A DNA stretch of 40,925 nucleotides from Pseudomonadales bacterium (lineage in GTDB: Bacteria; Pseudomonadota; Gammaproteobacteria; Pseudomonadales; Azotimanducaceae), in contig JANQOA010000181.1 in the NCBI GenBank assembly GCA_028279305.1, positions 1 to 40,925 of the forward strand, in the 5' to 3' direction. Below are positions 11,392 through 30,757 of the stretch, piece after piece; positions within the stretch are counted from its first letter, which is position 1, and each line of letters begins with the position of its first letter. Below the pieces are notes generated by a model. The model was not told where the DNA came from and did not search any database. It saw nothing but the letters and a program-made list of their open reading frames with translations. The position numbers were made by a program, and so were the translations under genes.

Positions 11392-11433
11392 GCCCGCGCA
11401 GCCGGCACCAGTGAACGCACAGGAGCAATCGCG

Positions 11434-12282: not shown

Positions 12283-12290
12283 CCGGGTGT

Positions 12291-12782: not shown

Positions 12783-12814
12783 GGGGCAATTCTAGTTGAT
12801 TTTAACTGCGCAGC

Positions 12815-14584: not shown

Positions 14585-14607
14585 CGCGGCCCAAGTATAG
14601 TGCCTGT

Positions 14608-14647
14608 CCGGAAAAAAGGCCGGAAAAAAGGGCCGAAAAAAATAGGG
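14608..14647. repeat. Three A-tract repeats in a divergent promoter region
   Basis: CCGGAAAAAAGG (14608-14619), CCGGAAAAAAGGG (14620-14632) and CCGAAAAAAATAGGG (14633-14647) form a short tandem array in the 115 bp between the amidohydrolase and CoA-transferase genes. The A-tracts recur every 12-13 bp, near the helical repeat, so the DNA may be bent here. It could be a regulator site or a slippage-prone microsatellite. Confidence 0.5.
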
Positions 14648-14699
14648 CGGCAGCCCAAACAGGGCAAATGGCGTTACACTTAGCGCCACTGGAGGAGGC

Positions 14700-15932
14700 A
14701 TGGAACAAAGCATGGGTAAGCGCACCGGCCCACTGGCCGACGTCACAATTATTGATTGCACCATGGCGCTGGCCGGACCCTACGGCACCGCCCTGCTGGC
14801 GGACCTGGGCGCCAATGTCGTCAAGGTAGAACCACCCGGCGGAGACAATTTCCGTCCGCTGCCGCCCACCCTTCCGGATTATGCCAACGTCGGCAGCGGC
14901 AAAACCGCCGGGGTGGATTACGGCGCCGCATTTGCCAGCGTAAACCGTAACAAACGCGGTATCAGCCTGGATTTTAAAGATCCCGCCGACCGGGAAACTC
15001 TGCTGCAGCTCTGCGAACAGGCGGATGCGGTGGTGGAAAACATGCGCGCCGGGGTGATGGACAAACTCGGACTGGGTTATGAAGTGATCAAAACCCGGAA
15101 TCCACGCATCGTTTACGCCGCGGTGCGCGGCTTCGGCGATCCGCGCACCGGCGCCAGCCCCTACGCACAGTGGCCTTGTTACGACATGGTGGCGCAAAGT
15201 ATGGGCGGCCTGGTACATCTGACCGGCCCGGCCGGGGACAGCGGCTATCCCAGCGGCGTCTCGGTAGGTGATATCTACCCGGGTACCTTAATGGCGCTGG
15301 GGCTGGTGTCAGCGCTGCATCACGCCCGCAGCAGCGGCGAAGGCCAGTTTGTTGATGTAGCCATGTACGACGCCATGCTGGCGCTCACCGGTGTATCGCT
15401 GTCCGGCTTCGGCCACGGCGCCGCTGCGGCGGGCGCCCAGGGCAGGCACTCCAGGACCCTGCTGCCCTTCGGCTTGTATCCCGCCAGCGATGGCCGGGTG
15501 GCGATCTGCGCCCCCGGTCCCAACCATTGGCCAAAGCTGTGTGAAGTTATAGAACGTCCGGATCTGATCAACGACGAACGGGCGCGCAATACATTTGTGC
15601 GGGTAAAAAATGGGGAGTATGTCATTACGGAAATCAGCGCCTGGACAGCCTCCCGCAGCAAACAGGAAATCATGGCGCAACTCGGCGGCGTGGTGCCGTG
15701 CGGACCGGTTAACGATGCTGAAGACATTTTTGCCGACCCCCACCTCAGCGCCCGGGAAATGCTCGCCCGCTACAACCCGCCTGGTGATAATCCCCAGGCC
15801 ACCATAGTCGGCAGCGCCATCAAATTTTCGCAGACACCTTCGGGAGTTTACCGGTCACCGCCCACCCTGGGGCAGCATCAGGATGAGGTGCTGGCTGAAT
15901 TCGGCATCAGCCCGCGCCGCGGGCGGGGGTAA
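14700..15932 (+). CDS. Class III (CaiB/BaiF, formyl-CoA transferase-like) CoA-transferase
   Basis: This 410-residue protein has the family N-terminus (DCTMALAGPYGTALLADLGANVVKVEPPGGD), RNKRGISLD near 83-91, and catalytic Asp162 in YDMVAQSMGG, the residue that forms the acyl-anhydride intermediate. The enzyme moves CoA between carboxylates and would activate an acid without ATP. GGAGGAGG directly precedes ATG 14700; the next ATG (14712) is an alternative. It starts a plus-strand operon with the two DsbA-fold genes (3-bp and 18-bp gaps). The acyl substrate is unknown. Confidence 0.88.
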   Translation: MEQSMGKRTGPLADVTIIDCTMALAGPYGTALLADLGANVVKVEPPGGDNFRPLPPTLPDYANVGSGKTAGVDYGAAFASVNRNKRGISLDFKDPADRETLLQLCEQADAVVENMRAGVMDKLGLGYEVIKTRNPRIVYAAVRGFGDPRTGASPYAQWPCYDMVAQSMGGLVHLTGPAGDSGYPSGVSVGDIYPGTLMALGLVSALHHARSSGEGQFVDVAMYDAMLALTGVSLSGFGHGAAAAGAQGRHSRTLLPFGLYPASDGRVAICAPGPNHWPKLCEVIERPDLINDERARNTFVRVKNGEYVITEISAWTASRSKQEIMAQLGGVVPCGPVNDAEDIFADPHLSAREMLARYNPPGDNPQATIVGSAIKFSQTPSGVYRSPPTLGQHQDEVLAEFGISPRRGRG

Positions 15933-15935
15933 AAG

Positions 15936-16622
15936 ATGCCCGCATCCCTGCAGCCGCTGTCCTCCGACGCTCCGCTGATCGTCTATGTGGACATAAAAAG
16001 CCCTTATGCCTTTGTTGCCATTGCACCCACCCTGGCCCTGGAACGGGAACTGGGGGCCGCATTCGACTGGCGGCCGCTGACCCTGGATATCCCCAGCTAT
16101 CTCGGCTCAGCACAAAAAAAAGCCGGCAAGGTGGTCAAATCCAACCGCTCCGCGGCGCAATGGGCGGGCATCAAATACGCCTACCGGGATGCCCGGCGTT
16201 ACGCCGAGCGGCAAGGCCACATACTTAAGGGCACGGAAAAAATCTGGGATTCCAGCCTCGCCAACATTGGCATCATGTGGGTGGTGGAACAGGACCGCAG
16301 CCGCCTGCCCGCCTACTTTGACGCGGTTTACCCGGCCTTCTGGCGGCGCGAACTGGATATCGAAGATGCGGACGTGGTTACTGCATGCCTCCAACAAGCC
16401 GGCGTCAACACCCGGGGCTTTGCCGGGTTTCTGCGGACAGACGGGCGGCAGCAACACGATGCGCTGCAGGCACAGCTGCATCCCGCCGGCATTTACGGCG
16501 TACCTACGTATGTGTTTGCACAGCAGATCCTGTTTGGCAGAGAACACCTGCCGCTGATCCGCTGGCATCTTCAGGGGCGCCGGGGACAGGCCCCCGACAT
16601 GGCTTACGAACTTGAGTTTTGA
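15936..16622 (+). CDS. DsbA-fold HCCA isomerase-like protein (copy 2)
   Basis: This 228-residue member of the 2-hydroxychromene-2-carboxylate isomerase/GST-kappa group has the N-terminal motif VDIKSPYAF with the family Ser, and the cis-Pro near the end in GVPTYVF, then QILFGREHLPLI. There is no CxxC. It starts 3 bp after the CoA-transferase stop, so the two are co-translated. It is clearly related to the next gene (shared YVD-KSP--F-A and LFGREHLP patterns). A glutathione-dependent isomerase step on an aromatic or alicyclic CoA or acid intermediate is possible; the reaction is unknown. Confidence 0.82.
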   Translation: MPASLQPLSSDAPLIVYVDIKSPYAFVAIAPTLALERELGAAFDWRPLTLDIPSYLGSAQKKAGKVVKSNRSAAQWAGIKYAYRDARRYAERQGHILKGTEKIWDSSLANIGIMWVVEQDRSRLPAYFDAVYPAFWRRELDIEDADVVTACLQQAGVNTRGFAGFLRTDGRQQHDALQAQLHPAGIYGVPTYVFAQQILFGREHLPLIRWHLQGRRGQAPDMAYELEF

Positions 16623-16640
16623 GCTGCACGCGGTTTGTTG

Positions 16641-17237
16641 ATGGATATGAAAATATATGTTGATTTTAAATCCCCGGCATCTTTCCTGGCGTTGCAGCCC
16701 ACCCTGGCATTGATAGGCAAAACCGGCACCACGGTGAAATGGCTGCCGTTTAACACCTCCCAGCAGCCCTTACCCGAACAGCAGGACAACGAGGATGTGG
16801 GTGCCCGCCACCGCCGGGTGCGTGCTCACGCGCGCCGCTCGGTCCATGAACTGTATGCGCGGCTGCGGGGTGTGGACATGCATTTCCCTGAGCAGCCGGG
16901 TGATACCCGCCTGGCGCTGGCCGCCCTTTCCGCAATTACCCGAAGCGGCGCCGACCCCCTGCCCTTCATACAGGCGGCTTTCTCGGCTTACTGGCAGTCC
17001 GGTCAGCGGCTCAACCTGCAGGACCGGTCAGGGGTAGAGAAGCTGCTGGAGGCCGGCAACGGCTCTGCCGCTCTACCACCGGATTTGCTGCAGGATCTGG
17101 ACGTAGACGGAGAACTGCAGCGCTGTGCGGAGCAGGCGGAAGCTGACGGCGTTGTTGAGGCGCCCGCTTACGTAGTGCACGGCCAGCTTTTTATCGGCCG
17201 GGAGCACCTGCCTTGGATTGAAGAGTTGTTGAGCTGA
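16641..17237 (+). CDS. DsbA-fold HCCA isomerase-like protein (copy 3, divergent)
   Basis: About 198 residues. It keeps IYVDFKSPASFLALQPTLAL at the start and EAPAYVV (cis-Pro) plus LFIGREHLPWI at the end, but the middle is shorter and rich in Arg and Gln, and diverges strongly from copy 2. This may be a subunit that pairs with copy 2, or a specialised duplicate. Start choice is uncertain: ATG at 16641 and 16647 and TTG at 16635 are close together and none has a good ribosome site, suggesting coupling to the gene before it. Its last 47 bp overlap the convergent symporter gene. Confidence 0.75.
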   Translation: MDMKIYVDFKSPASFLALQPTLALIGKTGTTVKWLPFNTSQQPLPEQQDNEDVGARHRRVRAHARRSVHELYARLRGVDMHFPEQPGDTRLALAALSAITRSGADPLPFIQAAFSAYWQSGQRLNLQDRSGVEKLLEAGNGSAALPPDLLQDLDVDGELQRCAEQAEADGVVEAPAYVVHGQLFIGREHLPWIEELLS

Positions 17238-18942
17238 CCCCGGACTGGTAACGCCGCCGCCATGCCCGGTTACCGAGCCAGCAACAGCAAATTGTCGCCG
17301 CCACCACCGCTGCGCTGCTGATCACGAAGGTGGTGCCGATGGTGCCGGCCAGGCCTATCGGTGAAAACACCAGATAGGTCATGACAATGGACGCCACCAG
17401 CAGCACCGCCGCGGAAGTGGCATACCGCCAGGGCGTCAGGTCAACCAGGTCGCGGCTGGTGTACTGCCACGCCCGGCTCATGGGCTGCCACCAACCGATG
17501 ACCAGCATCATGCCTACCTCTATCACAAACAGGATGGCATATACGTGGATGAAATTGATATTCACATCCAGCACAAACTGCAACAGGCCGTAAGCAATGA
17601 CGTGGAAGACCACCACCACCTTGGCCGCCAGCGCCGGCACCCGCCGGGTAAATAAACCCACCAGCACCAGGGTAATCACCGGAATGTTATAAAAACCGGT
17701 GAAGATGCGGATAATCTGCCACAGACCTTCCGGGGCATACTGCAGCAGCGGCGCCGCGACAAATGAAAACAAAGCGATAATCACGCTGGCAATTTTTGCC
17801 ACCTTTATCAGCTTTGCATCGGATACCGGCGATTTGCGCAGCGGCTGGTAAATGTCCAGGCAAAACAGGGTCGCGGCGCTGTTTAACAAAGAGTTAAAGG
17901 AGCTGAACACGGCGCCCAGCAGCACTGCCAGGAAAAAGCCGGCCAGGTAGACCGGTAACACATCGGCAACCAGGGTCGGGTACGCCATATCCATATGCTC
18001 CAACTCGCCCTGATACATGTGGTAGGCGATGATTCCCGGCAGCATCATGAAAAACGGCACCAGCAGTTTAAAGAAGCCTGAAATCAGAACCCCCTTCTGC
18101 CCTTCAGCCAGGTTTTTTGCGCCCAGGGTGCGCTGGATAACATATTGGTTGGTACCCCAGTAGAACAGATTCGCCAATATCATGCCGGTGAACAAAGTGG
18201 CAAACGGCACGGGATCGTCGACGCTGCCGATGGCGTTAAGTTTGTGGGTGTCTTCCGTCAGCACGATCTTCAGACCGGCCGCGGCACTGCCCTCACCCAG
18301 CGCCACCAGCCCGAGAACCGGCACCAGGGTGCCGACAATGAGCAGGCCGGCGCCGTTAATGGTGTCCGACACGGCCACCGCGCGCAGACCGCCGAACACC
18401 GCATAAACGCCGCCGATGCAGCCGATCACCAGAATGGTGATCAACAGTCCGCCTTCGAACCCCACCCCCAGCAGGCCGGGCACATCAAACAGGCGCAGCA
18501 CCGCTAACGACCCGGAATAGAGGATGGACGGGATGGTGATCAGACCGTAACCCAGCAGAAACAGGCCCACCGTCAAACGGCGCACGGTTTCGTCAAAACG
18601 ATCTTCGAGAAACTGCGGCAACGTGGCAAACGCGCCGCCCAGGTACCTGGGCAGAAACACCAGCGCCATAACAATGATGGCAATACCGGCGGTAACCTCC
18701 CAGGCCATGCTGGACATATTAAAGCCGAAAGCGGAACCGTTCAGACCAATCAACTGCTCAGCCGACAGATTGGTCAGCAGCAGGGACCCGGCAATAAACG
18801 TCCCCGTCAGGCCGCGTCCGGCGAGAAAGTAGCCTTCCTTGGTTTCTACCGCACCACGGGTCTTAAGGTACGATACCCACCCCACCAGGCCCATAAACAA
18901 CAGGCACGATAGCAGCGTGGAGATAATATCTTCGGTAGCGAT
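17191..18942 (-). CDS. Sodium/solute symporter, vSGLT-like sugar type
   Basis: An SSS-family symporter of about 583 residues with roughly 13-14 helices. FYWGTNQYVIQRTL, FKLLVPFFMMLPGIIAY, MAYPTL and SSFNSLLNSAATLFCLDIY match the Vibrio sodium/galactose symporter vSGLT as I recall it, including the sugar-contacting Asn in GTNQ. It would import a sugar-like substrate with Na+. The first normal start is TTG 18900, which cuts through helix 1. The frame stays open upstream to a stop at 18988-18990 without ATG, GTG or TTG. An ATC at 18940-18942 has AGGA seven bases upstream and restores the helix (DIISTLLSCLLFMGLVGW), so I place the start there as inference. It follows the TonB receptor, separated by a hairpin. 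Confidence 0.82.
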   Translation of the reverse strand: MATEDIISTLLSCLLFMGLVGWVSYLKTRGAVETKEGYFLAGRGLTGTFIAGSLLLTNLSAEQLIGLNGSAFGFNMSSMAWEVTAGIAIIVMALVFLPRYLGGAFATLPQFLEDRFDETVRRLTVGLFLLGYGLITIPSILYSGSLAVLRLFDVPGLLGVGFEGGLLITILVIGCIGGVYAVFGGLRAVAVSDTINGAGLLIVGTLVPVLGLVALGEGSAAAGLKIVLTEDTHKLNAIGSVDDPVPFATLFTGMILANLFYWGTNQYVIQRTLGAKNLAEGQKGVLISGFFKLLVPFFMMLPGIIAYHMYQGELEHMDMAYPTLVADVLPVYLAGFFLAVLLGAVFSSFNSLLNSAATLFCLDIYQPLRKSPVSDAKLIKVAKIASVIIALFSFVAAPLLQYAPEGLWQIIRIFTGFYNIPVITLVLVGLFTRRVPALAAKVVVVFHVIAYGLLQFVLDVNINFIHVYAILFVIEVGMMLVIGWWQPMSRAWQYTSRDLVDLTPWRYATSAAVLLVASIVMTYLVFSPIGLAGTIGTTFVISSAAVVAATICCCWLGNRAWRRRYQSGVSSTTLQSKAGAPGR

Positions 18943-18972
18943 GTTGCTTTCCTGACCCGGGGGCGGCTGATA

Positions 18973-19008
18973 TCCCGCCTCATCAATTCATCGATTGATG
19001 AGGCGGGA
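18973..19008 (-). promoter_or_regulatory. Perfect 15-bp-arm hairpin between receptor and symporter genes
   Basis: TCCCGCCTCATCAAT (18973-18987) and its exact complement (18994-19008) are separated by a 6-base loop. It lies 30 bp after the receptor stop and about 30 bp before the symporter start. No run of T follows on either strand, so it is not a classical terminator; mRNA protection, processing or attenuation between the two genes is more likely. Confidence 0.7.
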
Positions 19009-19038
19009 CCCTAGCATGCCACCAGTTTCGCAGGCGCT

Positions 19039-21396
19039 CTAGTCGAACAGTGCCCGCAGGTTAATGCCGAAGTAGCGTTCCGCCTCACGGGGAATCTGAT
19101 AACGGAAGCTGTCACCGCTGTAAGTGGTGATGTAGCTCTCATCAGCGAGATTCTTACCAATCAAAGTCACCCGGAATTTGTCGTCATTAAACGAAAACGC
19201 CACGCTGGCATTAATCACATCGTAATCCGGCAACAGGGTTGCGGGATTAAACGTACCGTCGTTGCCCGGCAGCGTAGCCTGCTGCTCATCGGTGTAGACG
19301 TAAGAGGCATTCAGAATGATGTCCATGGACTCGCCGGGAATCACGTAGTTCGCCATCAGCGAGTACTTCAACTCCGGTGCAAACGGCACCTCAAGTCCGG
19401 ACCGGTCCGAACAGTTTGCCGGCGGCAGTCCGGTGGTCGGGTCAATCGGGCAGTTGAACTCGTCAATTTCAGCCTCCACCGCGGCAAAGCCGCCGGTCAG
19501 GCTGAAGTTCTCAGTCGGGTTCCAGATTACATCCACTTCAAACCCTTCCGTGGTTACATCGCCGGCGTTAGTCAGCCGGGTGATGGTCACCCCGGTGGAG
19601 TTGTCGAAGTTGTTGGCCTGGAAATCTTCGATATCCGTGCGGAAATATGTGGCGGCCAGGTACAGGGTTGAACCGACGTACTTGTAGCCGATTTCATATG
19701 AATCCGATGTTTCCTCGCCAATCGGCAGGGTGTCGTTGGTACCCATGTTATAGAACACGTTGAACGCGGGGCCCTTGTAGCCCTGGCTGTAGGTTCCGTA
19801 AATGCTGTGGTTTTCACCGAACTGCCAGTTCAAACCAATTTTGCCGGAGACGTCCGTTTCATCGGTGTCGCCGTCAAAGTTTGTGTTAAAGCCACCGCTG
19901 GCGGGACCAAACTGGCTGTTCGGCGCTGCCGGCCGCACCCCTACCCCCTGGCGTCCGAACTCATCGCTGTTGGTACGGTTGTGTTTAAAGGTCACTTCAT
20001 CGTCGGTATAGCGGATGCCGAGAATGGCGCTGAGGTTTTCGGTGAAATGCCAATCCGCCTGGGCAAATACGGCAAAGTTATTGAACTCCGTACGCATGTT
20101 GCCGGTTGCTGCAACAATATCGTTGGCGTTACAGGTCAAACCGGGGTTAGCGTCCAGAATATCCTGGTTCTGGCCGCCGTTGTTCTGACAACTGGCTTCA
20201 CGGGTGAAAAAGCGCTCGGAATCCAGATTCCAGTAGAACAGCCCCGCCTGCCAGACCAGGGCCTGATCCTGGGGTGAGCTGATGCGGAATTCCTGGGAAA
20301 ACTGGGTCCAATCCACGCCGCCGACGTCATGCAACTGGAAAGGCACGCCGAACACCGGCGCGGCGGCGCTGCCGCCGATGGAGGTGAAGTCACCTTCTCT
20401 GAATTCCGTATTGTCCCAGGAGCGGTACGCGGTGATTGAAGTCAGCTCGTAGTCGTTGTCGAATGACTTGTTGAACTGAATGGAAAACGCGGTGGTTTCA
20501 TCCAGGCTCTCGGTCACAAAGTCATGGTCCACGCGCCGCTGGTCCAGGTCGATGTCAGCATCATTGCCGACCACGCCGACGCTGTCCGGCACCGCTTCAG
20601 ACAACGGGTTGCGGCCGCTGGGCAAACCTTCCAGGTCGGCACAGCACTCGTCGTCAGCGTCAAAGTACTCAGCAATGGCCAGCACCGTCAGGTCGTCAGC
20701 AACATCGTACTCCAGCATGGCGCGAAAGCCCTGGCGGTCGTAGCCATTGGTTTCCTTGTTATTGAAGACATTTGAGATGTAGCCGTCGAATTCGGATCTG
20801 ATGATATTCAGGCTGCCTCGGGCATTTTCACCCAACGGCCCGCTGACCTTGCCGCGCAATCTGAATTCGTTATCCTGGAAAAAGGACGTATCGACATAAC
20901 CCTCAAACGTATCCGTTGGCCGTTTGGTTGTAATGTTAACCACCCCGGCGGACGCGTTCTTGCCGAACAGCGTGCCCTGGGGGCCGCGCAGCACTTCGAT
21001 GCGCTCGATATCATATAGATCGGTAAAGGCCTGCCCGGAGCGGCCCAGCACAACGCCGTCCACGACGGTGGATACGGAGGGTTCAGCAGCAACACTGAAA
21101 CTGATGGTACCGATGCCGCGGACGGTCAGTGCCGAGTTGCGGATGGTTGTGCCTTTGCGGAAGCTCACCGAAGGCACCAGCGCCTGCAATTGTTCAATGT
21201 TGTTACCAAAAGCGGCATCGACAGTTTCTGATTGCAAGACTGAAACAGCCAGGGGTACTTCCTGCAGCCCCTGTTCCCGTTTCTGCGCGGTGACCACTAT
21301 TTCTTCGATCACCGATTCAGCCGCGGCTGTGCCGACGCTGCACACTCCGCAAAGCAGCAGCGGCCACAACAGCCTGCTGATGGTTTTCTCTCTCAT
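19039..21396 (-). CDS. TonB-dependent outer-membrane receptor
   Basis: The protein has 785 residues. A signal peptide ends near TAAA (residue 26), followed by a TonB-box-like segment IEEIVVTAQKREQ at about 30-42. The plug domain has PLAVSVL, RGIGT, the LRGPQGTLFGKNASAG motif and NITTKRP. A 22-strand-type barrel follows with typical DLTVLAIAEYFD, GIRYTDDE and YGTYSQGYKGPAFN strands. It ends in NLRALFD rather than the usual terminal Phe. Such receptors import substrates too large or scarce for porins. Position beside a sugar-type symporter, an SsuD-like monooxygenase and sugar oxidoreductases suggests a sulfosugar or its glycoside, not iron. GGAG precedes the ATG by nine bases. Confidence 0.9.
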   Translation of the reverse strand: MREKTISRLLWPLLLCGVCSVGTAAAESVIEEIVVTAQKREQGLQEVPLAVSVLQSETVDAAFGNNIEQLQALVPSVSFRKGTTIRNSALTVRGIGTISFSVAAEPSVSTVVDGVVLGRSGQAFTDLYDIERIEVLRGPQGTLFGKNASAGVVNITTKRPTDTFEGYVDTSFFQDNEFRLRGKVSGPLGENARGSLNIIRSEFDGYISNVFNNKETNGYDRQGFRAMLEYDVADDLTVLAIAEYFDADDECCADLEGLPSGRNPLSEAVPDSVGVVGNDADIDLDQRRVDHDFVTESLDETTAFSIQFNKSFDNDYELTSITAYRSWDNTEFREGDFTSIGGSAAAPVFGVPFQLHDVGGVDWTQFSQEFRISSPQDQALVWQAGLFYWNLDSERFFTREASCQNNGGQNQDILDANPGLTCNANDIVAATGNMRTEFNNFAVFAQADWHFTENLSAILGIRYTDDEVTFKHNRTNSDEFGRQGVGVRPAAPNSQFGPASGGFNTNFDGDTDETDVSGKIGLNWQFGENHSIYGTYSQGYKGPAFNVFYNMGTNDTLPIGEETSDSYEIGYKYVGSTLYLAATYFRTDIEDFQANNFDNSTGVTITRLTNAGDVTTEGFEVDVIWNPTENFSLTGGFAAVEAEIDEFNCPIDPTTGLPPANCSDRSGLEVPFAPELKYSLMANYVIPGESMDIILNASYVYTDEQQATLPGNDGTFNPATLLPDYDVINASVAFSFNDDKFRVTLIGKNLADESYITTYSGDSFRYQIPREAERYFGINLRALFD

Positions 21397-21421
21397 CGTC
21401 TCTCTCTCCAGTTCTAATTAT

Positions 21422-21438
21422 GCGCCGCCCTGCGGCGC
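21422..21438 (-). promoter_or_regulatory. GC hairpin just upstream of the receptor gene
   Basis: GCGCCGC and GCGGCGC form a perfect 7-bp stem with a 3-base loop, in the 72-bp gap between the monooxygenase stop and the receptor start, just upstream of the receptor ribosome site. No T-run follows. With the hairpin at 18973-19008 it brackets the receptor message. Confidence 0.6.
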
Positions 21439-21468
21439 TTTCTCCGCGATACGCCCTCAGCGGTTACC

Positions 21469-22545
21469 TCATGCGGCCAAAGCCCCGTGTGGTAACTGCG
21501 GAAGCACGTATTTCGCAAACAAGTCACATTCATCCCGGTGCGGATAGCCGGACAGGATAAATGCTTCAATCCCCAGATCCATGTACTGACGCAGCTTGCG
21601 CAGCACCTGGTCCGGGTCACCGACTATGGCGGCGCCGCAACCGCTGCGCGCGCGTCCTATGCCGGTCCACAGGTTATCTTCGACAAAACCCTCAACATCC
21701 GAGCGTTCACGTAATTCCCCTTGCGCCCGCACCCCAACCGACTGGCTGTCCAGGCTTTTGGCCCGAATGCGGTCCCCCGCATCGTCGTCAAGCTGGGACA
21801 CCAGATGCGCCGCGGCAGCGCGCGCCTGGGCCTCCGTTTCCCTGACAATAACGTGCACGCGGTAACCAAAACGCAGGGTGCGGCCGAAGCCGTCAGCCCG
21901 GGCGCGCATATCCTGCAGAATTTTCTCCACCTGATCCAGCGTATCCGGCCACATCAGAAATACGTCTGAACACTCCGCCGCCACCTGCCGCGCCGGTTCC
22001 GACAAGCCGCCAAAATAAAACAGCGGGCAGCGGCCGGAGCGGGTGTGGACCACCGGCGCCTGCAGCGACAGATTGTAGAAATCACCCTGGAAATCAATGT
22101 CGCTGCCGTTCAGCAGGCTGCGCAAAATCTGCATGGTTTCGCGGGTGCGCGCATACCTCGGCTCGCTTTCCAGTTTCTCCCCGGGGATGTCCGAAGAGAT
22201 AATATTGATGCTCAGCCGGCCGTCCAGCATCTGATCCAGGGTGGCCATCTGCCGCGCCAACTGCGGCACCCACAACTCGCCGCAACGCACCGCCACCAGC
22301 AGGTGAATCTGCTCCAACAGCGGCGCGATGCCGCCGGCAAAAGCCACCGAATCTATCCCCAGCTGGTAACCCGAGGGTAACAGTATATTATCGTAACCGT
22401 TGCGGTCAGCCGCCTGCACAATGTCGCGGCAGTGGTTCCAGGAAGATTTCAGCTCGGGCTCATGTACACCCAGCAGCCGGTAGTCGTCGTCACACAGGGC
22501 GGAAAACCAGCTGACCTCCACGCTGCTGTCTTGTCCGTTACTCAT
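21469..22545 (-). CDS. SsuD-like FMNH2-dependent sulfonate monooxygenase (LLM family)
   Basis: This 358-residue luciferase-like TIM barrel aligns along its length with alkanesulfonate monooxygenase SsuD as I recall it (VSWFSALCDDDYRLLG, QAADRNGY, LLVAVRCGE, PLFYFGGLSEPARQVAAE). Residues equivalent to SsuD W196, R226, H228, R297, Y331 and H333 are all present as W199, R229, H231, R300, Y334 and H336. SsuD Cys54 is not conserved. The enzyme should cleave a C-S bond, giving an aldehyde and sulfite, using FMNH2 from a separate reductase that is not in this window. SmoC of the sulfoquinovose sulfo-SMO route belongs to this family. Its start overlaps the reductase gene stop by four bases (ATGA), indicating coupled synthesis. 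Confidence 0.85.
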   Translation of the reverse strand: MSNGQDSSVEVSWFSALCDDDYRLLGVHEPELKSSWNHCRDIVQAADRNGYDNILLPSGYQLGIDSVAFAGGIAPLLEQIHLLVAVRCGELWVPQLARQMATLDQMLDGRLSINIISSDIPGEKLESEPRYARTRETMQILRSLLNGSDIDFQGDFYNLSLQAPVVHTRSGRCPLFYFGGLSEPARQVAAECSDVFLMWPDTLDQVEKILQDMRARADGFGRTLRFGYRVHVIVRETEAQARAAAAHLVSQLDDDAGDRIRAKSLDSQSVGVRAQGELRERSDVEGFVEDNLWTGIGRARSGCGAAIVGDPDQVLRKLRQYMDLGIEAFILSGYPHRDECDLFAKYVLPQLPHGALAA

Positions 22546-23438
22546 GGTAATGCCGCTCCCATCGATGCCTGAATGATCCGGTAGACGTCCGCACGGTTAA
22601 GCTGCACCGTCAGCGCCCGGGTTGCTTGCACGATCCGCTCGACATTGGTGGAACCCACCAGCGCTACCGGCCGGCTGGGGTGCGCCAGCACAAAGGCCAG
22701 GCATAAAGTGGCGATATCCACTTCTTCGCGGGCAGCCAGTTGTTCCAGCGCCGCTGCCAGCTCCGCGTTCAACTGCGACGGGTCCGCCAGACGCCCGCCG
22801 CCCAGCGGCGACCAGGCCAGCACCGTGTGCTGATACTGCATACACTGGTCGAACGTACCGTCAAACAGGGGCTGCAGATGCAGGGCCGAGTACTCCGGCT
22901 GCTGACTGACCAGCGGAAAGCCCAGATAAGCGGCCAACGCCGCGGTTTGCGCCGGTGTATGGTTGGATACCCCAACCTCACGGATCTTGCCGCTGGTGCG
23001 CAGATTTTCCAGCAGCCTGGCGGTTTCCTGCGGATGATTCAGCAGGTCCGGGCGGTGGACCTGATACAGATCCAATTGTTCCACCTGCAGCCGGCGCAAC
23101 GAATCTTCACACGCGGATTGCAGATTAGCTGAGTCATAGGGTACACCGGGGATAATTCCACCCTTGGACGCCAGCACCATGCGGCTGCGCAAATGCGGCG
23201 CCTGCTGCAACACCCGGCCGAGCAGTTCTTCCGCTTCGCCGAAACTCTGCCCGCCCCAATCCAGGCCGTAGACATCAGCGGTGTCAATCAGGTTCATACC
23301 CTGCTCCAGGGCACACTCAACCCGCTGCTGGGCTTCATCCGCGGCCATCGCCACCAGGCGCCAGCAGCCGAAGCCCAGCGGCCCCACCTGCATTTCAGCG
23401 CCCAGCGGCCGCGGCGTGCTATCGACTAGGTTCTGCAT
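22542..23438 (-). CDS. Aldo/keto reductase, YdhF/SmoB-like
   Basis: A 298-residue AKR TIM barrel has the catalytic tetrad Asp52, Tyr57 (DTADVYG), Lys92 (ASKGGI) and His128 (YQVHRPD). NADPH-site segments GVSNHTP and LAWSPLGGGRL are present. CEDSLRRLQVEQLDLYQVHR and LRTSGKIREVGVSN resemble the 6-dehydroglucose reductase SmoB as I remember it. In the sulfo-SMO pathway that enzyme reduces the aldehyde left after desulfonation of sulfoquinovose to glucose. Adjacent overlap with the SsuD-like gene supports consecutive steps. AAGGA is close before the ATG, which lies inside the end of the Gfo/Idh/MocA gene (13-bp overlap). Another carbonyl substrate is possible. Confidence 0.85.
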   Translation of the reverse strand: MQNLVDSTPRPLGAEMQVGPLGFGCWRLVAMAADEAQQRVECALEQGMNLIDTADVYGLDWGGQSFGEAEELLGRVLQQAPHLRSRMVLASKGGIIPGVPYDSANLQSACEDSLRRLQVEQLDLYQVHRPDLLNHPQETARLLENLRTSGKIREVGVSNHTPAQTAALAAYLGFPLVSQQPEYSALHLQPLFDGTFDQCMQYQHTVLAWSPLGGGRLADPSQLNAELAAALEQLAAREEVDIATLCLAFVLAHPSRPVALVGSTNVERIVQATRALTVQLNRADVYRIIQASMGAALP

Positions 23439-24634
23439 AATTCCTTATCCATAAATTGTTTAACTTCCACGGGCTGGCCCTGTTCAATTGACGCCTGGGC
23501 CGCCGCTCCGGTGACCACCGACCACAAGGCATCTTCACCGCTGGGCCCGGAATTACTGCCGCTGAGCAGATCGTCGACAAACGCCACGTGTTCATAGAAG
23601 GTGGAGCCATGGTGACCGGCCCGGTGTATGTGCGGCGCATAGTGCGGCTGCACCGACCGGGAGGTGCCGTGATCACCCAGCCAGACATCAACCTGGTTAC
23701 GGGTTTCTTCGCCGAGCCGGGCGGATTCGCTGGCGAACAGGCGGCCGCGGTCGCCGCACACAGTCAGCTCTTCAACCGAACCGGGCACAAACATGCACAG
23801 GTTGAAGTTGCCCTGCACCCCATTTTCATACTCAATCAGCACCGAGGCCTGATCAAGCCCGTCCGCGCCTTCTCCCCGATACTCAAATGATTTGAAGTTC
23901 ACCGCCTGGGCGCCGTTGGCAAACACCCGCCGCGGCCGGGAACCGGCAAACAGGTTCAACAGGTCAAAATAGTGGCAACACTTTTCGATCAGGGTGCCGC
24001 CGGTGAACTTGTTGAATTTGTTCCACTGGTCAACTTTGTCCAGAAACGGAAAGCGGTGCTCCACCATGGACACGCTGTGTACCCTGCCGATGGACTGCTG
24101 CTGCAGGACTTCGGCAATAGCTTCCTGGTATACGGCTTTGTAGCGGTACTGCAGACCAATCCGGGTCAGTGCATTGTGGGCGTCCAGCAGGCTGCACACC
24201 TCAACAGCGTCAGCCACCGTGGTGGCGATGGGCTTTTCGATGAAGATGGCCTTCCCGCACCCCGCCAGCTCCCGCAGCACCGGCAGATGGGTAAAGTTGG
24301 GTGAACAGATAAAGACCGCGTCCACCGCGGTGTCCTGCAGAATTTCACCAACATCTTCATAGACAGGCAGCTCCACGCCCATTTTGGCGGCACTGCGCTG
24401 TGCGAATTGCACACTTTTGGGCGCCGGGTCGTAAACGCCGGTCACTCTGGCGCGGCCTTCCAGAATGGTGTTGCGGATATGTTCCTGACCCATGTTGCCG
24501 CAGCCGATGACGGCAAAGCCAAATTGCGGTTCAGGCGCCCTTGAAAGGTAGCGGTCGCCGTCCGGCAGATAGTCGAATGCACCCCGGGTAAACACCCGGC
24601 GCGTGGATATCTCGTCCTTGTCTTCCTCTCCCAT
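23426..24634 (-). CDS. Gfo/Idh/MocA-family oxidoreductase
   Basis: About 402 residues. The NAD(P) Rossmann motif is VIGCGNMGQEH (Gly44, 46, 49), EKPIATT at 133-139 is the family signature, and GGTLIEKCCHYFDL at 212-224 holds the conserved active-site His221. A polar N-terminal arm of about 35 residues precedes the fold. Relatives oxidise sugars or cleave glycosides by an NAD-dependent redox route; NAD-dependent sulfoquinovosidases (GH188, as I recall) have this fold. First in a sulfonate and sugar operon, it may release sulfoquinovose from its glyceride or oxidise the sugar. The start is uncertain: ATG 24634, GTG 24652 (GGAG four bases before), ATG 24703 and ATG 24721 are all in frame. The divergent LysR gene argues for a downstream one. 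Confidence 0.8.
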   Translation of the reverse strand: MGEEDKDEISTRRVFTRGAFDYLPDGDRYLSRAPEPQFGFAVIGCGNMGQEHIRNTILEGRARVTGVYDPAPKSVQFAQRSAAKMGVELPVYEDVGEILQDTAVDAVFICSPNFTHLPVLRELAGCGKAIFIEKPIATTVADAVEVCSLLDAHNALTRIGLQYRYKAVYQEAIAEVLQQQSIGRVHSVSMVEHRFPFLDKVDQWNKFNKFTGGTLIEKCCHYFDLLNLFAGSRPRRVFANGAQAVNFKSFEYRGEGADGLDQASVLIEYENGVQGNFNLCMFVPGSVEELTVCGDRGRLFASESARLGEETRNQVDVWLGDHGTSRSVQPHYAPHIHRAGHHGSTFYEHVAFVDDLLSGSNSGPSGEDALWSVVTGAAAQASIEQGQPVEVKQFMDKELCRT

Positions 24635-24713
24635 GACAGCCCGTTTGCCCACAGCACTCCAGAGCGAGATGTTATCGCAAGAAAAACCGTTTATTATTTC
24701 CATATCGAGAATA

Positions 24714-24726
24714 ATTGCCATTCAAT
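24714..24726. promoter_or_regulatory. ATTG-N5-CAAT dyad in the LysR intergenic region
   Basis: A 13-bp dyad lies between the LysR gene and the divergent operon, of the size of LysR-type binding boxes. It overlaps the most upstream possible start of the Gfo/Idh/MocA gene, another reason to prefer a downstream start. The match is short and could be chance. Confidence 0.3.
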
Positions 24727-24742
24727 TTGTCATGGATTTTTC

Positions 24743-25621
24743 ATGATCGACCCGAAACAGCTGGCCTACTTTGTTGCCGTATACCAGCACGGCAGCTTTC
24801 ATGCCGCGGCCGCCGCCGCCGGTACTTCCCAGAGCGCCATGACCAAACATGTGCAACGCCTGGAGGAACGCCTGGGGGTCAAATTGTTCAACCGCACCAC
24901 GCGCAAGGTCGAAGCGACGGATATAGCGCGGCAACTGGTGCTGCAGGCTGAAGCATCGCTACAGTCGCTGCAGGCTTTTGAAGCTGAAGCGCGCCTGCTG
25001 GGCAGCGGCGAGTTGGGCTCGCTGCGGGTCGGCGCCATTGCCCTTGCGTCCGAAACGCTGGTGACGCCGGCGCTGGCCCGGCTGGCCCGCTCCAACCCGG
25101 ATCTGGAAGTGGAGGTGGTGGTCGGCAGTGAAGATGTCTACCGGGATCTGGCCACCGGACGCTGCGACGTGGTAATCGGTGATGAGGCCAATTTCTCTTC
25201 CTCGCCATACGCCGGAGCACTGCGTATGAACAGTATCCGGCGGGAGCCGTTGCGTATAGTGCTGCGCCGGGGCCATCCGGCTGCCCAGGCTGACGTGCAC
25301 ACGCTGTTAACCCGTTACCCCTGGGCTATCCCAAGCCGCTACTTCAACGAAAACGAACTGTTCAGCAATTTGAAGAGCCATATGGCCAAAGCCCGGCACT
25401 ATCGCTTAACCAGCCTCACCGCGTGTTTAAGCCTGGCCGAGGCCAGTGACGTGGTCACCCTGGCGCCGGACTCCCTGGTCAGCGCCGGCAGTTCACCCTA
25501 CCGCCTGGTGCCTTCACCCGTGGACATCAACCTGACCATTCACTTTGCCCTGTTCACCATCGCCGCCAATTCACCGACGCCCGCCGTAAGGGCGCTGCAG
25601 AGCGCGCTGACAAGAGGTTAA
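24743..25621 (+). CDS. LysR-family transcriptional regulator
   Basis: This 292-residue LTTR has an N-terminal winged helix at about 4-62 (QLAYFVAVYQHGSFHAAAAA, SQSAMTKHVQRLEERLGVKLFNRTTRKVE) and a periplasmic-binding-like effector domain from about 90. It is transcribed away from the five-gene minus-strand operon, the standard arrangement for a regulator of that operon. The effector is likely the imported substrate or an intermediate. Its TAA stop is embedded in a 12-bp palindrome AACGGTACCGTT (25620-25631). Confidence 0.9.
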   Translation: MIDPKQLAYFVAVYQHGSFHAAAAAAGTSQSAMTKHVQRLEERLGVKLFNRTTRKVEATDIARQLVLQAEASLQSLQAFEAEARLLGSGELGSLRVGAIALASETLVTPALARLARSNPDLEVEVVVGSEDVYRDLATGRCDVVIGDEANFSSSPYAGALRMNSIRREPLRIVLRRGHPAAQADVHTLLTRYPWAIPSRYFNENELFSNLKSHMAKARHYRLTSLTACLSLAEASDVVTLAPDSLVSAGSSPYRLVPSPVDINLTIHFALFTIAANSPTPAVRALQSALTRG

Positions 25622-25655
25622 CGGTACCGTTGCACGGCAGCGGCTGAGAGCACGG

Positions 25656-25679
25656 AGACTGTGAGCTGGCGCACAGTCT
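25656..25679. promoter_or_regulatory. Inverted repeat between LysR and histidine kinase genes
   Basis: AGACTGTG and CACAGTCT are exact complements separated by 8 bases. With the 12-bp palindrome at 25620-25631 they occupy the 121-bp gap. No T-run follows. TATACT at 25706-25711 may be the -10 box of the kinase operon, so this repeat could be an operator upstream of it. Confidence 0.4.
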
Positions 25680-25742
25680 GCACCGCAGGCACAGCGGGCC
25701 TTTTCTATACTGAATAGATCTAGCGGTGGAACGTCTACACGT

Positions 25743-28151
25743 TTGCAGGGTGTGAACAGCACAAGACAGCAGCACAACGGCTTCCGGCACCTGCGGGTGA
25801 CGGCACTGTTGCTGTGCGCCTTTGCCGGCAGTGTCGGGCCGGCAAGCGCCTGGGCCGTCACTGACCTGGCGCACGACGCCAGATCCGCCGGTTACGTGAG
25901 CCTGGAGAACCTGCAATGGGCGCCGGCGCAAGGCGAAAACACGGCGGTGGGCGCGGCGCATTCAGTAGCTGACGTATTTGATGACAAATTTTTCCGGCGC
26001 TTTAAAGCCTACGGCGGCCAACAATTTGACAGTGGGGACATCTGGTTCAAGACTGAACTCACGCACCTGGATGCCAGCGGCCCGCGCTATCTGAAACTGG
26101 GTGATCCGCGCCTGCTGGCGTCTGAAATCTGGGTGCGCGCGGGACAACGCTGGCAGCGGCTGTCAGCGGAAGGACCTGCCGCAGGGCTGGGCGTGCACAC
26201 CGGTTCATTCCCGAACGTGACCGTAAAGCTGCCGGAGACGCCGGGGACCGCCACGCTGCTGGTGCGGCAGACCTCCACGGTACCATTCGTCGGCACCCTG
26301 GAGCTGTACGATAGTCTGAGCTTCCGCGCCGCCACCCGCATGGCATTGTTCGGCGGCGGGGCCGGCTTCGGCGCGCTGCTGATCTTAACCGTCTATGCCT
26401 TTTTTATCGCTGCGCTGACCCGCGACCGGTTGTATGGCTTGTTGGGCGCACATTGCCTGGCGATGCTGATTTTCCTCTTTCATTATATGGGTTACTCGCG
26501 CCCGATCATGTGGGGCGACCTGGTAGCGCTGGACTATACCGTGACGGTGTCAGCGCCGTTTTTTGTATTTGCCAGTTATCTGGTGTTCTGCCGCTCGTTT
26601 CTGGGGTTCACGGCAAACATCTGGTACCGCATACCGCTGTACTGCTCCATGCTGGCCGGCGGTCTGTTCATGGCTGGGCTCCAGGCGCCGCAGTTGTACA
26701 CCGCCGCCACCGCCCTGGGCGGCGTGGCCTGCTGCGCCATGACCGTCGTTTCGCTGATTATGGGCTTGCGCGGCAACAGACGCGGCTGGCACTACCTGAT
26801 TGCCAATTCATTTTCATTTATCGGCGGCACCGCTTCGATTCTGGATGCAGTGTTCGGCCTCGGCCATCCGGGTATCGGCAATGTGCTGATGCTGGTGGGC
26901 ACGGATCTGACCGTATTCTGCCTGGTGATGATTCTGGCCGGACACATCAGAGTGCTGCAGCGGCAGAACAAAGACGCTAACCTGCGTGAAGAAGCAGCAC
27001 GCCAGGCTGCCCAGAATGCCCACGCCGTTGCGGCCCAAAAAAGCGCTTTTCTGGCCACCATGAGCCATGAAATCCGCACGCCCATGAACGGTGTGCTGGG
27101 GATGTCGGAGCTGCTTGCCGCAACCCGCCTGGATGCTGAACAGAGCAGCTACGTGGATGCGATAGGCCGCTCCGGCACCACCCTGATGGCCATTCTTGAC
27201 GATATTCTGGACTATTCGAAATTTGAATCCGGCAACTTCAACTTTGAGCAGGTTGAAGTAGACCTGGTACAGCTGATTGACGACGTCAGCCTCAGCGCCC
27301 GGGAACAGGTGCAGCACAAGAGTGTAGCCATCCAAGCGGATCTGGCCCCCGGAGTGCCCCGGTGGGTGTGTTCCGATCCGACCCGGCTGCGGCAGATCAT
27401 CAGCAACCTGGTAAACAACGCCATTAAGTTCACTGAACAGGGTTATATACGCCTGCAGGTCTGCCCGGCTGAGAACGGTGTCGAATTCATCATCACCGAT
27501 ACGGGAATCGGCATGGACCAACAGGAGTTGGCCTCGCTGTTCGAACGCTTCAAGCAGGCTGACTCATCCATCACCCGCAAATACGGCGGCTCCGGCCTGG
27601 GTTTATCCATCTGCAAATTGCTGACGGAAGCGATGGGGGGCAGCATTACCGTAAACACGCGCAAGGGGCTGGGTTCCACCTTCACGGTCCGCTTGCCGCT
27701 GGCCGAGGCGCAGCAGCCGGTACAGCAGCGGCAGGCCTCCGGCAACACCGCCACCGACACACCGCTGAGCGGCTGCAACATACTTGTCGCTGAAGACAAC
27801 AGCACAAACCAGCTGGTGGTGCGCAAACTGTTAACCCAGGCGGGAGCTGCGGTGACGGTTGTGGAAAACGGCCAGCAGGCCGTGCAGGCGGCTGCACAAC
27901 AGGCGTTTGACGTGGTACTCATGGATTGTGAGATGCCCGTCATGGACGGTTATACCGCCACCCGGGAAATCCGCGCCGCTGAGGCGGACGGCCGGCGCAC
28001 GCCAATCATCGCCGCAACCGCCCACGTCACCAGCGAATACCGCAATCTGGCAAGAGAGGCGGGTATGGACGGTTATATCGCTAAACCGCTGAGACGGGAC
28101 AAGCTGCTCAACACGCTCAAACAACTGGTGTTAGACTCTCCCCAGCACTGA
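25743..28151 (+). CDS. Hybrid sensor histidine kinase with 7TMR-DISM sensor and receiver domain
   Basis: 802 residues: signal-like hydrophobic N-terminus (about 18-38), periplasmic 7TMR-DISM extracellular domain at about 45-195, seven membrane helices at about 200-400, coiled segment 405-435, HisKA with His442 (SHEIRTP), HATPase with N-box NLVNNAIKF (555-563), DTGIGM and GGSGLGLSI, then a receiver domain with acidic pocket AEDN (683-686), phospho-acceptor Asp728 and Lys781. DISM sensors are thought to bind carbohydrates or other small ligands. No separate response regulator or Hpt protein lies nearby, so the output is unknown. The start is TTG 25743 or GTG 25752; neither has a strong ribosome site. 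The RDD gene follows after 5 bp, implying one operon. Confidence 0.9.
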   Translation: MQGVNSTRQQHNGFRHLRVTALLLCAFAGSVGPASAWAVTDLAHDARSAGYVSLENLQWAPAQGENTAVGAAHSVADVFDDKFFRRFKAYGGQQFDSGDIWFKTELTHLDASGPRYLKLGDPRLLASEIWVRAGQRWQRLSAEGPAAGLGVHTGSFPNVTVKLPETPGTATLLVRQTSTVPFVGTLELYDSLSFRAATRMALFGGGAGFGALLILTVYAFFIAALTRDRLYGLLGAHCLAMLIFLFHYMGYSRPIMWGDLVALDYTVTVSAPFFVFASYLVFCRSFLGFTANIWYRIPLYCSMLAGGLFMAGLQAPQLYTAATALGGVACCAMTVVSLIMGLRGNRRGWHYLIANSFSFIGGTASILDAVFGLGHPGIGNVLMLVGTDLTVFCLVMILAGHIRVLQRQNKDANLREEAARQAAQNAHAVAAQKSAFLATMSHEIRTPMNGVLGMSELLAATRLDAEQSSYVDAIGRSGTTLMAILDDILDYSKFESGNFNFEQVEVDLVQLIDDVSLSAREQVQHKSVAIQADLAPGVPRWVCSDPTRLRQIISNLVNNAIKFTEQGYIRLQVCPAENGVEFIITDTGIGMDQQELASLFERFKQADSSITRKYGGSGLGLSICKLLTEAMGGSITVNTRKGLGSTFTVRLPLAEAQQPVQQRQASGNTATDTPLSGCNILVAEDNSTNQLVVRKLLTQAGAAVTVVENGQQAVQAAAQQAFDVVLMDCEMPVMDGYTATREIRAAEADGRRTPIIAATAHVTSEYRNLAREAGMDGYIAKPLRRDKLLNTLKQLVLDSPQH

Positions 28152-28156
28152 GATAG

Positions 28157-28927
28157 ATGATGAGCGAAACCTTTCAGATCACCAGCACCACCGGTGTGGA
28201 TGTCAACGTCTGCATTGCCGGTCCCGGCGCCCGCAGCTACGCGTTTGTTGTCGACTGGCATATCCGCCTGGTGCTGGCCATGGCCTGGTTTGTGATTGCC
28301 GCCCTGCTTTACAGCGGTACGCTGGAATTGATCGACGCGGAATCTCCGGCGTTCAGCGGCTACTTTTTTGTTGTCCTGCTGCCCGCCATCGCCATCTACG
28401 CCCTTTACCACCCGGTGCTCGAAGTATTAATGGCCGGCCGCACACCCGGCAAGCGGATTGCCGGCGTAAGGATTGTGACCACGGACGCCCAGGTGCCGGG
28501 GGTGCTGGCACTGCTGATCCGCAATGTGCTGCGGCTGGTTGACAGTCTGCCGTTCGGTTACGTGGTCGGGCTGATCAGCACCGTTGCCACCGCACGCAGC
28601 GTGCGAATCGGCGACCTTGCCGCCGGCACCCTGCTGGCTTATGAAAACACTCAACAGGCCGCGCCCGCGCCCGGCTTCAGCCTGCAGCCCGCCCTGGCCG
28701 AGGGGCACAACGGTTCCGTAGATCGCTTCGGCGTGGATGCTGAAGCCATTGCAAAAACCGAACTGGTGCAGGATCTGGTGGAGCGCTGGCAGCAGCTGGC
28801 ACCCGAGAAGCGGCAGCAACTGGCGGCCAAACTGCTGAACCAGCTTGCGCCTGAACAAGCGGCGCCGCACGGACCGCAGACTGCTGACGAAAAATTGAAG
28901 CAGCAGCTGCAGGCGTTGCTGCGGTAG
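28157..28927 (+). CDS. RDD-family membrane protein
   Basis: The protein has 256 residues. An N-terminal beta-like stretch is followed by RSYAFVVD (the Arg and Asp of the RDD name), three to four helices, and the diagnostic loop GRTPGKRIAGVRIV near 93-106. The C-terminal 80 residues are soluble, Gln-rich and likely coiled-coil (ELVQDLVERWQQLAPEKRQQ). RDD proteins have been linked to ion or osmolyte stress, but the function here is unknown. It sits between the kinase and the SpoIIM-family gene (5-bp gaps each side), a common partner set of MoxR/DUF58 clusters. Confidence 0.85.
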   Translation: MMSETFQITSTTGVDVNVCIAGPGARSYAFVVDWHIRLVLAMAWFVIAALLYSGTLELIDAESPAFSGYFFVVLLPAIAIYALYHPVLEVLMAGRTPGKRIAGVRIVTTDAQVPGVLALLIRNVLRLVDSLPFGYVVGLISTVATARSVRIGDLAAGTLLAYENTQQAAPAPGFSLQPALAEGHNGSVDRFGVDAEAIAKTELVQDLVERWQQLAPEKRQQLAAKLLNQLAPEQAAPHGPQTADEKLKQQLQALLR

Positions 28928-28932
28928 CTCAG

Positions 28933-29946: not shown

Positions 29947-30295
29947 AGCCTTCTACCACCTGATGTTCAACGAGTGCCAGCCGCGCCTGGCGGTTGAGCG
30001 CTACGTGGGAGCCACTTACACCCAGCACAATCCGGAAGTCGCTGACGGCAAAGCGGCGTTTATCGAATATTTTGAGCGTATGGCTGAGGCATACCCGGGC
30101 AAAACCGTGTATTTCAAACGCAGGATAGCCCAGGACAACTATGTTGTGCTGCATTGCCACCAGGTGTGGCCGGGAGACCAGGAATACGCCGGGATCGATA
30201 TCTTCCGTTTCGACGAAAACGGTAAAATTGTTGAGCACTGGGATGTCTTGCAGGTCATTCCCGACACCGCTGCCCACGACAACACCATGTTTTGA
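29915..30295 (+). CDS. SnoaL-like (NTF2-fold) protein
   Basis: A 126-residue small cone-shaped alpha+beta protein has [24 protein letters not shown] and a C-terminal [19 protein letters not shown], both hallmarks of SnoaL-like predicted ester cyclase or aldol-type proteins. The substrate is unknown. It starts inside the SpoIIM-family gene (32-bp overlap, different frame) and ends one base before the thioesterase start, so all are probably co-translated. It has no obvious link to the membrane genes before it. Confidence 0.82.
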
Positions 30296-30296
30296 C

Positions 30297-30752: not shown

Positions 30753-30757
30753 GGTGT

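Follow-up and report, generated by a model that had tools for sequence, protein, structure and literature searches.

Sulfoquinovose (SQ) is a sulfur-containing sugar of plants and algae. Its production has been put at ∼10 billion tons per year (PMC10755693). In the sulfoquinovose monooxygenase pathway (sulfo-SMO, also sulfo-ASMO), as outlined for Agrobacterium tumefaciens and Novosphingobium aromaticivorans, a luciferase-like flavin monooxygenase (LLM) and an aldo/keto reductase (AKR) yield sulfite and glucose (PMC9594981, PMC12890257). NAD-dependent sulfoquinovosidases of family GH188, such as SqgA, are described as cleaving both alpha and beta glycosides, and their presence in sulfo-SMO clusters has already been published for Roseobacter and others (PMC10755693). 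A review table assigns the sulfo-SMO pathway to alpha- and betaproteobacteria, and the pathway has already been reported in one Vibrio, in Actinomycetota and in Spirochaetota (PMC13372026). The portions of the literature that were found say little about how SQ crosses the outer membrane of Gram-negative degraders; no TonB receptor or Na+/solute symporter for SQ was among the matches listed in a narrow search of titles, beginnings of abstracts and some passages. Transporter genes are reportedly annotated in the sulfo-Entner-Doudoroff (sulfo-ED) cluster of Pseudomonas putida SQ1. We analysed a 40,925-nucleotide stretch of DNA from a Pseudomonadales bacterium (assembly GCA_028279305.1, contig JANQOA010000181.1; hereafter the window), which is contig C340 of a 5.7-Mb assembly of 399 contigs that is 97.41% complete. 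As argued below, the window carries an operon that very probably imports and mineralises SQ, presumably in the form of its glycerol glycoside (SQGro).

The original prediction had proposed a same-strand run of five genes next to a divergent LysR gene. This layout was found on the contig as described: the list of open reading frames (ORFs) confirmed the strands and the overlaps of 13 bp between the Gfo and AKR genes and of 4 bp between the AKR and LLM genes, and Pfam and NCBIfam assigned all six genes to the expected families. The LysR gene falls just beyond position 24721, where the operon had been taken to end. The genes are:

23426..24634, minus strand: putative NAD-dependent sulfoquinovosidase, GH188, SqgA-like (Gfo/Idh/MocA family; the frame given by the ORF tool starts at 24721)
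22542..23438, minus strand: aldo/keto reductase, putative 6-dehydroglucose reductase (Pfam PF00248)
21469..22545, minus strand: LLM flavin monooxygenase, putative SQ monooxygenase of the SmoC/SquD family (structure scores, identity and tree)
19039..21396, minus strand: TonB-dependent receptor, putative outer-membrane importer (Pfam PF00593 and PF07715; clade support)
17191..18942, minus strand: Na+/solute symporter, vSGLT/YidK-like, PRK10484, putative inner-membrane importer (NF007790; the ORF tool starts the gene at TTG 18900)
24743..25621, plus strand: LysR-family protein, divergent, putative local regulator (Pfam PF00126 and PF03466)

Agrobacterium, which is described as taking up SQGro through an ABC transporter, uses a GH31 enzyme; the window operon has a TonB receptor, a Na+ symporter, a GH188 enzyme and a LysR regulator instead. 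In the pathway predicted from the sequence, including its substrate, direction of transport, enzyme activities and regulation, the sugar would pass the outer membrane through the TonB receptor and the inner membrane through the Na+ symporter. The cytoplasmic GH188 enzyme would free SQ via a transient NAD-dependent oxidation at C3, the LLM, drawing reduced flavin from a reductase whose gene lies elsewhere, would cleave SQ to sulfite and 6-dehydroglucose, and the latter would be reduced to glucose by the AKR; the LysR protein would regulate the operon. The host genome holds a glycerol kinase, a glucokinase and two sulfite-oxidase-type domains, and two PF01613 flavin reductase genes located elsewhere in it are candidates to serve the LLM.

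As the host genome has 78 luciferase-family matches, membership of the LLM family is by itself little informative and the subfamily is decisive. Among solved structures, the window LLM scored 370 bits with 7olf and 368 bits with 7oh2 (51% and 50% identity, respectively), compared to 219 bits with MsuD and 195 bits with SsuD. We take 7olf and 7oh2 to be SmoC structures, a name that their depositors do not state. In a quick tree of 47 rows (42 of the 92 extracted LLMs, the window protein and four structures), for which the tool warned of long branches meeting at the outgroup, the SsuD/MsuD pair was separated from the other LLMs by a branch with a support of 100. In the same tree, 7olf and 7oh2 clustered with a Ruegeria protein (support 99) and then with two Bacteroidota proteins (85). 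The window LLM lay in a 9-row group made of same-genus proteins and one Pseudomonadales protein (99); this group joined proteins of Myxococcota, Acidimicrobiia and Rhodobiaceae at 80–87 and was separate from the Sphingomonas/Novosphingobium/Rhizobium group. Judging from this grouping, the window LLM belongs to the SQ monooxygenase family, outside the Agrobacterium subgroup. The NCBIfam SsuD and SfnG models were under their cut-offs. It had been asked at the outset whether the LLM would fall with dimethylsulfone or methanesulfonate enzymes: it stands apart from SsuD and MsuD, and SfnG, which was absent from the tree, reached only 104 bits. A methanesulfonate, alkanesulfonate or dimethylsulfone enzyme is thus ruled out by the structure scores and the tree.

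The best Protein Data Bank (PDB) matches of the Gfo/Idh/MocA protein were 8qc3 (228 bits) and 8qc2 (218 bits), both described as SqgA, the NAD-dependent sulfoquinovosidase (PMC10755693). The nine ArSqgA residues that we followed (K107, Y136, E164, R166, L170, K172, E189, H193 and H321) are all kept in the window protein. According to the SqgA report, eight of them contact SQ and a Glu is the proposed substitute for the catalytic Tyr; this Glu is printed as Glu163 and, counted from Arg166, is residue 164 (PMC10755693). An alignment of 34 of the 57 extracted Gfo proteins with the window protein and SqgA showed the pattern K Y E R L K E H H in 35 of 36 rows, the lone deviating row being an inositol 2-dehydrogenase added as outgroup. 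The complete GH188 residue set, together with SqgA as best structure match, bears out the sulfoquinovosidase type that had been proposed for this gene. The window protein thus shares with the SqgA enzymes the family, the tested residues and the placement in a sulfo-SMO cluster; it is only 37% identical to the solved enzyme. By eye, the protein has no apparent signal peptide, which would place cleavage in the cytoplasm and require the symporter to transport the glycoside.

The AKR retains the Asp/Tyr, Lys and His motifs, whose role in this family we take as known. Its best PDB match was YdhF (150 bits), 7bby, which we take to be SmoB, scoring 126 bits. A quick tree of 32 of the 73 extracted AKRs, the window protein, 7bby and YdhF placed the window AKR in a 14-row group (support 98) of same-genus, actinobacterial, myxococcal and Rhodobiaceae AKRs from sulfo-SMO loci. 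The sphingomonad AKRs formed a separate group (90), and those of Novosphingobium loci were also apart from the window AKR. As 7bby, the Ruegeria AKR, YdhF and one further protein formed a group (96) to which the window AKR does not belong, the equation of this gene with SmoB made in the original prediction is not upheld, and orthology with SmoB, presumably represented by 7bby, is ruled out by this tree. A published sulfo-SMO survey looked for an AKR within 10 ORFs of the monooxygenase (PMC13372026); in the window the two genes overlap by 4 bp.

The conservation of the locus was then followed in related genomes. At E 1e-60, 10 of 57 relatives (the window genome not counted) had the LLM, and each of these 10 is one of the 36 same-genus genomes. 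Nine of these 10 loci have the divergent LysR gene, the Gfo gene and the LLM gene in the same order, a recurrence which argues that the arrangement is not due to chance; LysR is divergent from Gfo in all nine loci whose contig continues at that place. The AKR gene lies between Gfo and LLM in seven of these nine. The tenth locus (L022), from the sister genome G027, is truncated where its contig ends, and the AKR of G027 is broken across two contigs. The window and G027 are the only cases with receptor and symporter after the LLM, and the two share a DsbA-like pair downstream. Three LysR-GH188-LLM cores (L027, L031 and L034) come from genomes without an AKR relative at E 1e-20; in L027, a GPH-type symporter adjoins the LLM and a receptor of 27% identity stands on the far side of the core.

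In named genomes, at least 578 related loci came out of one scan; we analysed the best 80, many of whose flanks are cut by contig ends. With cut-offs of 150 bits (300 bits for the receptor), 61 of these 80 loci had an AKR, 46 a GH188 homologue, 37 a receptor and three a symporter. The three symporter loci are L032 (the G027 locus), L055 and L078, the latter two with ∼34% identity. Receptor, GH188 and AKR occurred together in 14 of 75 loci, a count that leaves out five Pseudomonadales-type loci (L032, L033, L034, L036 and L038). Sphingomonads and their relatives commonly have a TonB receptor near a sulfo-SMO core, so that this feature taken alone was ruled out as new. The closest of these arrangements, on the Sphingomonas paeninsulae plasmid NZ_CP032828 (L120), has MFS, receptor, Gfo, LacI, AKR and LLM genes; it likewise unites receptor, Gfo/Idh/MocA, AKR and LLM and differs by its LacI regulator, its nearby MFS transporter and the absence of a Na+ symporter among the genes listed. 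The Novosphingobium pentaromativorans locus has genes for a receptor, an alpha-glucosidase, LacI, AKR, LLM, glycerol-3-phosphate dehydrogenase and glycerol kinase, that of Ruegeria sp. TM1040 has Gfo, GntR, LLM, AKR, flavin reductase and TRAP genes, and that of Rhizobium has ABC, LacI and LLM genes. On an Emticicia oligotrophica plasmid (L123), an LLM gene (46%) is followed by a sodium/solute symporter gene only 32% identical to that of the window, the stretch giving no match to GH188 or the AKR, and a Spirosoma LLM gene lies near SusC/SusD genes.

The window receptor has a signal-peptide-like start and, by eye, a putative TonB box, EEIVVTAQKR. Receptor and symporter were searched in 368 other Gammaproteobacteria genomes, only the two or three best candidates per genome being scored. 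Receptors at E 1e-95 or better were found in five genomes (G200, G312, G408, G223 and G404). Those of G200, G312 and G408 lie in TauD-type clusters beside relatives of the symporter. The G223 receptor locus (L181) encodes a GH188 homologue (49%), a TRAP component, two further Gfo-type oxidoreductases and a PfkB kinase, for which the best structure was sulfofructose (SF) kinase (220 bits), followed by a sugar kinase (162 bits) and ribokinase (94 bits). The G404 receptor is ∼32 kb from the symporter gene and adjoins a TauE protein, a different receptor standing beside the G404 symporter cluster.

In a quick tree of 56 rows (55 of the 68 extracted receptors and that of the window), one clade with a support of 99 united the window receptor, the three TauD-cluster receptors and 26 of the 29 receptors from sulfo-SMO loci, and excluded the 22 further receptors from the window genome that were in that tree. 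The three sulfo-SMO receptors outside the clade are second receptors of loci L070, L074 and L094; they were classed as 'other' in a careful 40-row tree and counted as SQ cluster in the 56-row tree, where five changes were needed. With the G223 and G404 receptors added, the 40-row tree gave the clade a support of 100/99, a value also reached in a further tree with Azotobacter and Acinetobacter receptors; these two trees used smaller picks of rows. The clade spans sulfo-SMO, TauD-type and SF-kinase-type clusters. A plasmid search made independently of SQ genes returned 26 receptor records, 12 of them at 390 bits or more. Eight of these 12 have an LLM of the window family within ∼5 kb; the other four, three from Azotobacter and one from Acinetobacter, do not. 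Separately, the host's 5.7-Mb assembly holds 50 matches to the window receptor at E 1e-20.

Neighbourhoods were viewed for five of the 26 plasmid receptor records. In three of the four from Azotobacter and Acinetobacter (L184, L185 and L186), the receptor is followed by another LLM and an AKR. This other LLM was of the NtaA/DmoA type in both loci scanned, and both Azotobacter loci additionally encode an SsuA-type protein, TonB, ExbB and ExbD. L184–L186 may represent a possible undescribed desulfonation cluster.

The symporter scored 712.8 bits against NF007790 (PRK10484, YidK-like; NCBIfam cut-off 401) and 188 bits against vSGLT (2xq2). Relatives at E 1e-110 were found in six of the 368 genomes, four of 68–73% and two of 46–49% identity. 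All four closer relatives are in clusters with a GH31 enzyme, a GntR/UTRA regulator, a DkgA-type AKR and a TauD-family dioxygenase (families assigned from L125 and L127 by Pfam and from L125 by NCBIfam); a YeiH-type exporter is also present, except that L128 gave no YeiH match. A receptor of 59–62% adjoins the symporter (67–72%) in three of these four clusters (L125, L126 and L128), which hold the nearest relatives of both window transporters as immediate neighbours. They differ from the window operon in that the dioxygenase, another AKR type, GH31 and GntR replace LLM, GH188 and LysR, and in that the symporter precedes the receptor; Pfam found no TauD-family SQ dioxygenase among the six genes of the window operon. 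In genome G314, a TauD relative (57%) directly adjoins an AKR (64% to that of L125) and a GH188 homologue (36% to that of the window) with a complete residue set. The sulfoquinovose dioxygenase (sulfo-SDO) set is given as SqoD and SquF (PMC12890257), and GH188 is reported for sulfo-SDO-type clusters (PMC10755693). The G314 genes would be the sulfo-SDO set with GH188, the match to SqoD being one of description only. In the TauD-type clusters, the GH31 enzyme resembles YicI more closely than YihQ, and it had no match at 150 bits in any of the 80 LLM loci; we therefore call these clusters only sulfo-SDO-like, a label based on the dioxygenase, the AKR, the exporter and the relative in G314 that has a GH188 homologue beside it.

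Symporter matches were also found in 37 plasmid records, three of which were viewed with their neighbourhoods. On the Burkholderia multivorans plasmid L188, typed as conjugative, a symporter relative of 54.7% is followed by a YihQ-type GH31 enzyme (best structure 5ohy, 987 bits), then by a TSUP transporter, glycerol kinase and glycerol-3-phosphate dehydrogenase; SMP-30-family, aldehyde dehydrogenase and IlvD/Edd genes are close by. Paraburkholderia caribensis has matches to the symporter, GH31, TSUP, SMP-30 and aldehyde dehydrogenase proteins of L188, the glycerol genes being unmatched in the stretch. This type of plasmid cluster looks like sulfo-ED. L188 differs from the window operon by its lactonase-family, dehydratase and aldehyde dehydrogenase genes, which are not those of an oxygenolytic desulfonation, and no TonB receptor appears in its incomplete gene table.

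As receptor and symporter each occur with chemically different SQ-type routes, they are most simply explained as importers of the shared SQ or SQGro. Import through these two proteins, as first proposed, is thus strengthened by their relatives in other SQ-type clusters, and only the combination with this symporter is unusual. Since the receptor clade and the symporter relatives occur in clusters of other SQ pathways, the operon appears to be a sulfo-SMO core joined to an uptake module common to those pathways. What would be new is the pairing of these transporters with this core and their sharing across pathways, the chemistry and the GH188 pairing being known. We lean slightly towards a broader reading, in which the receptor clade and the symporter subfamily form a portable SQ uptake module reused with different pathways and the window operon is its recombinant with a sulfo-SMO core. 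In that reading, the receptor serves flavin monooxygenase, TauD-type dioxygenase and sulfo-Embden-Meyerhof-Parnas (sulfo-EMP)-like routes, and the symporter serves monooxygenase, dioxygenase and sulfo-ED-like routes. If true, this clade would amount to a family of outer-membrane sulfosugar receptors, of which the papers searched gave no example, and could mark new routes, such as the Azotobacter clusters with an NtaA/DmoA-type LLM, and transporters common to several pathways would flag SQ users in metagenomes regardless of chemistry.

Several observations weigh against these conclusions. Receptor and symporter were absent downstream in all eight other same-genus loci that could be judged (7.0–10.0 kb covered), the contig of a ninth (L031) ending at the LLM. 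The three Azotobacter and Acinetobacter receptors fall inside the clade though they stand beside a different LLM; they rule out a clade exclusive to known SQ clusters, and the clade therefore tracks clusters of the oxygenolytic sulfonate type, mostly but not only for SQ. The 45–49% symporter relatives (L129 and L130) have, as read by eye, genes for other sugars around them, where the SQ queries matched nothing but a 35% AKR in L129, and no SQ genes are listed within 8 kb of a 58% relative in Staphylococcus saprophyticus; a symporter subfamily exclusive to SQ is ruled out by these three. To these points add the kinship of the GH31 enzyme of the TauD-type clusters with YicI, the position of the window AKR outside the 7bby group, and the lack of any AKR genome-wide at E 1e-20 in all three genomes (G008, G010 and G425) whose core has none. 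Pfam found no flavin reductase among the six operon genes, as is likewise described for the N. aromaticivorans cluster (PMC9594981), and the assembly has a contamination of 6.56%.

Some of these points would suit an operon that mainly scavenges sulfur from sulfonates under sulfur limitation, in the manner of ssu genes and with carbon use secondary. The three cores of the same type without AKR, the same-genus cores without receptor and symporter directly downstream and the clade receptors beside an SsuA-type protein in Azotobacter agree with such a role, as does the control of ssu genes by LysR regulators of the CysB/Cbl kind. We consider it unlikely, as scavenging of this type does not require a glycosidase, a sugar-type Na+ symporter or an AKR, and no CysB or Cbl model was among the 25 listed of the 55 NCBIfam matches for the LysR protein.

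The same chemistry could also act on another sulfosugar or SQ glycoside, for instance sulfofucose or an SQ-bearing N-glycan. GH188 enzymes are described as taking both alpha and beta glycosides (PMC10755693), and with LLM and GH188 identities to the references of 51% and only 37%, specificity could have shifted; the retention of all nine tested GH188 residues and the recurrence of transporter relatives with other SQ-type pathways make this an improbable alternative to SQ or SQGro. That receptor and symporter are unrelated genes merely lying downstream of the catabolic core would fit their absence from the eight other loci and the hairpin between the two genes (see below), and is quite improbable given that SQ-type clusters from other families of the class also contain relatives of the two and that the receptor clade has a support of 100/99.

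Two non-coding elements accompany the operon that we read as an SQ import and mineralisation unit:

24693..24715, no strand: inverted repeat ATTATT-N11-AATAAT, candidate LysR operator between the divergent genes (comparison of the loci of relatives)
18972..19009, minus strand: hairpin with a 16-bp stem in the receptor-symporter gap (minimum free energy −49.2, z −5.26)

An inverted repeat with perfect 6-bp arms is present at the LysR-Gfo gap in five of 10 loci (the window, L023, L029, L030 and L031), and the alignment showed a related, imperfect repeat sequence at that place in the remaining five. Because this repeat, related in the relatives upstream of the gene, falls inside the longer frame, the Gfo gene probably starts at 24634, not at 24721. 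The symporter gene lacks an ATG at the N-terminus common to its relatives. An in-frame ATC at 18942, upstream of TTG 18900, is preceded by a purine-rich stretch and stands where the L125 relative has an ATG; the orthologue of the sister genome G027 (L022, near position 3911) also has an ATC. The symporter start is probably this ATC. In L022, a hairpin of different sequence (3795–3905, z −4.21) occupies the same receptor-symporter gap. The gap hairpin was not called a terminator, a T-run being absent by eye; such hairpins may perhaps act in mRNA processing or differential expression.

Elsewhere in the host genome, on contig C177 (positions 11000–30900, L146), a second GH188 paralogue (55%) adjoins a TauD-family dioxygenase and a TonB receptor (30%). 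The dioxygenase is 55% identical to the sulfo-SDO-like one, and L146 is a possible second SQ locus of this genome, of the dioxygenase type.

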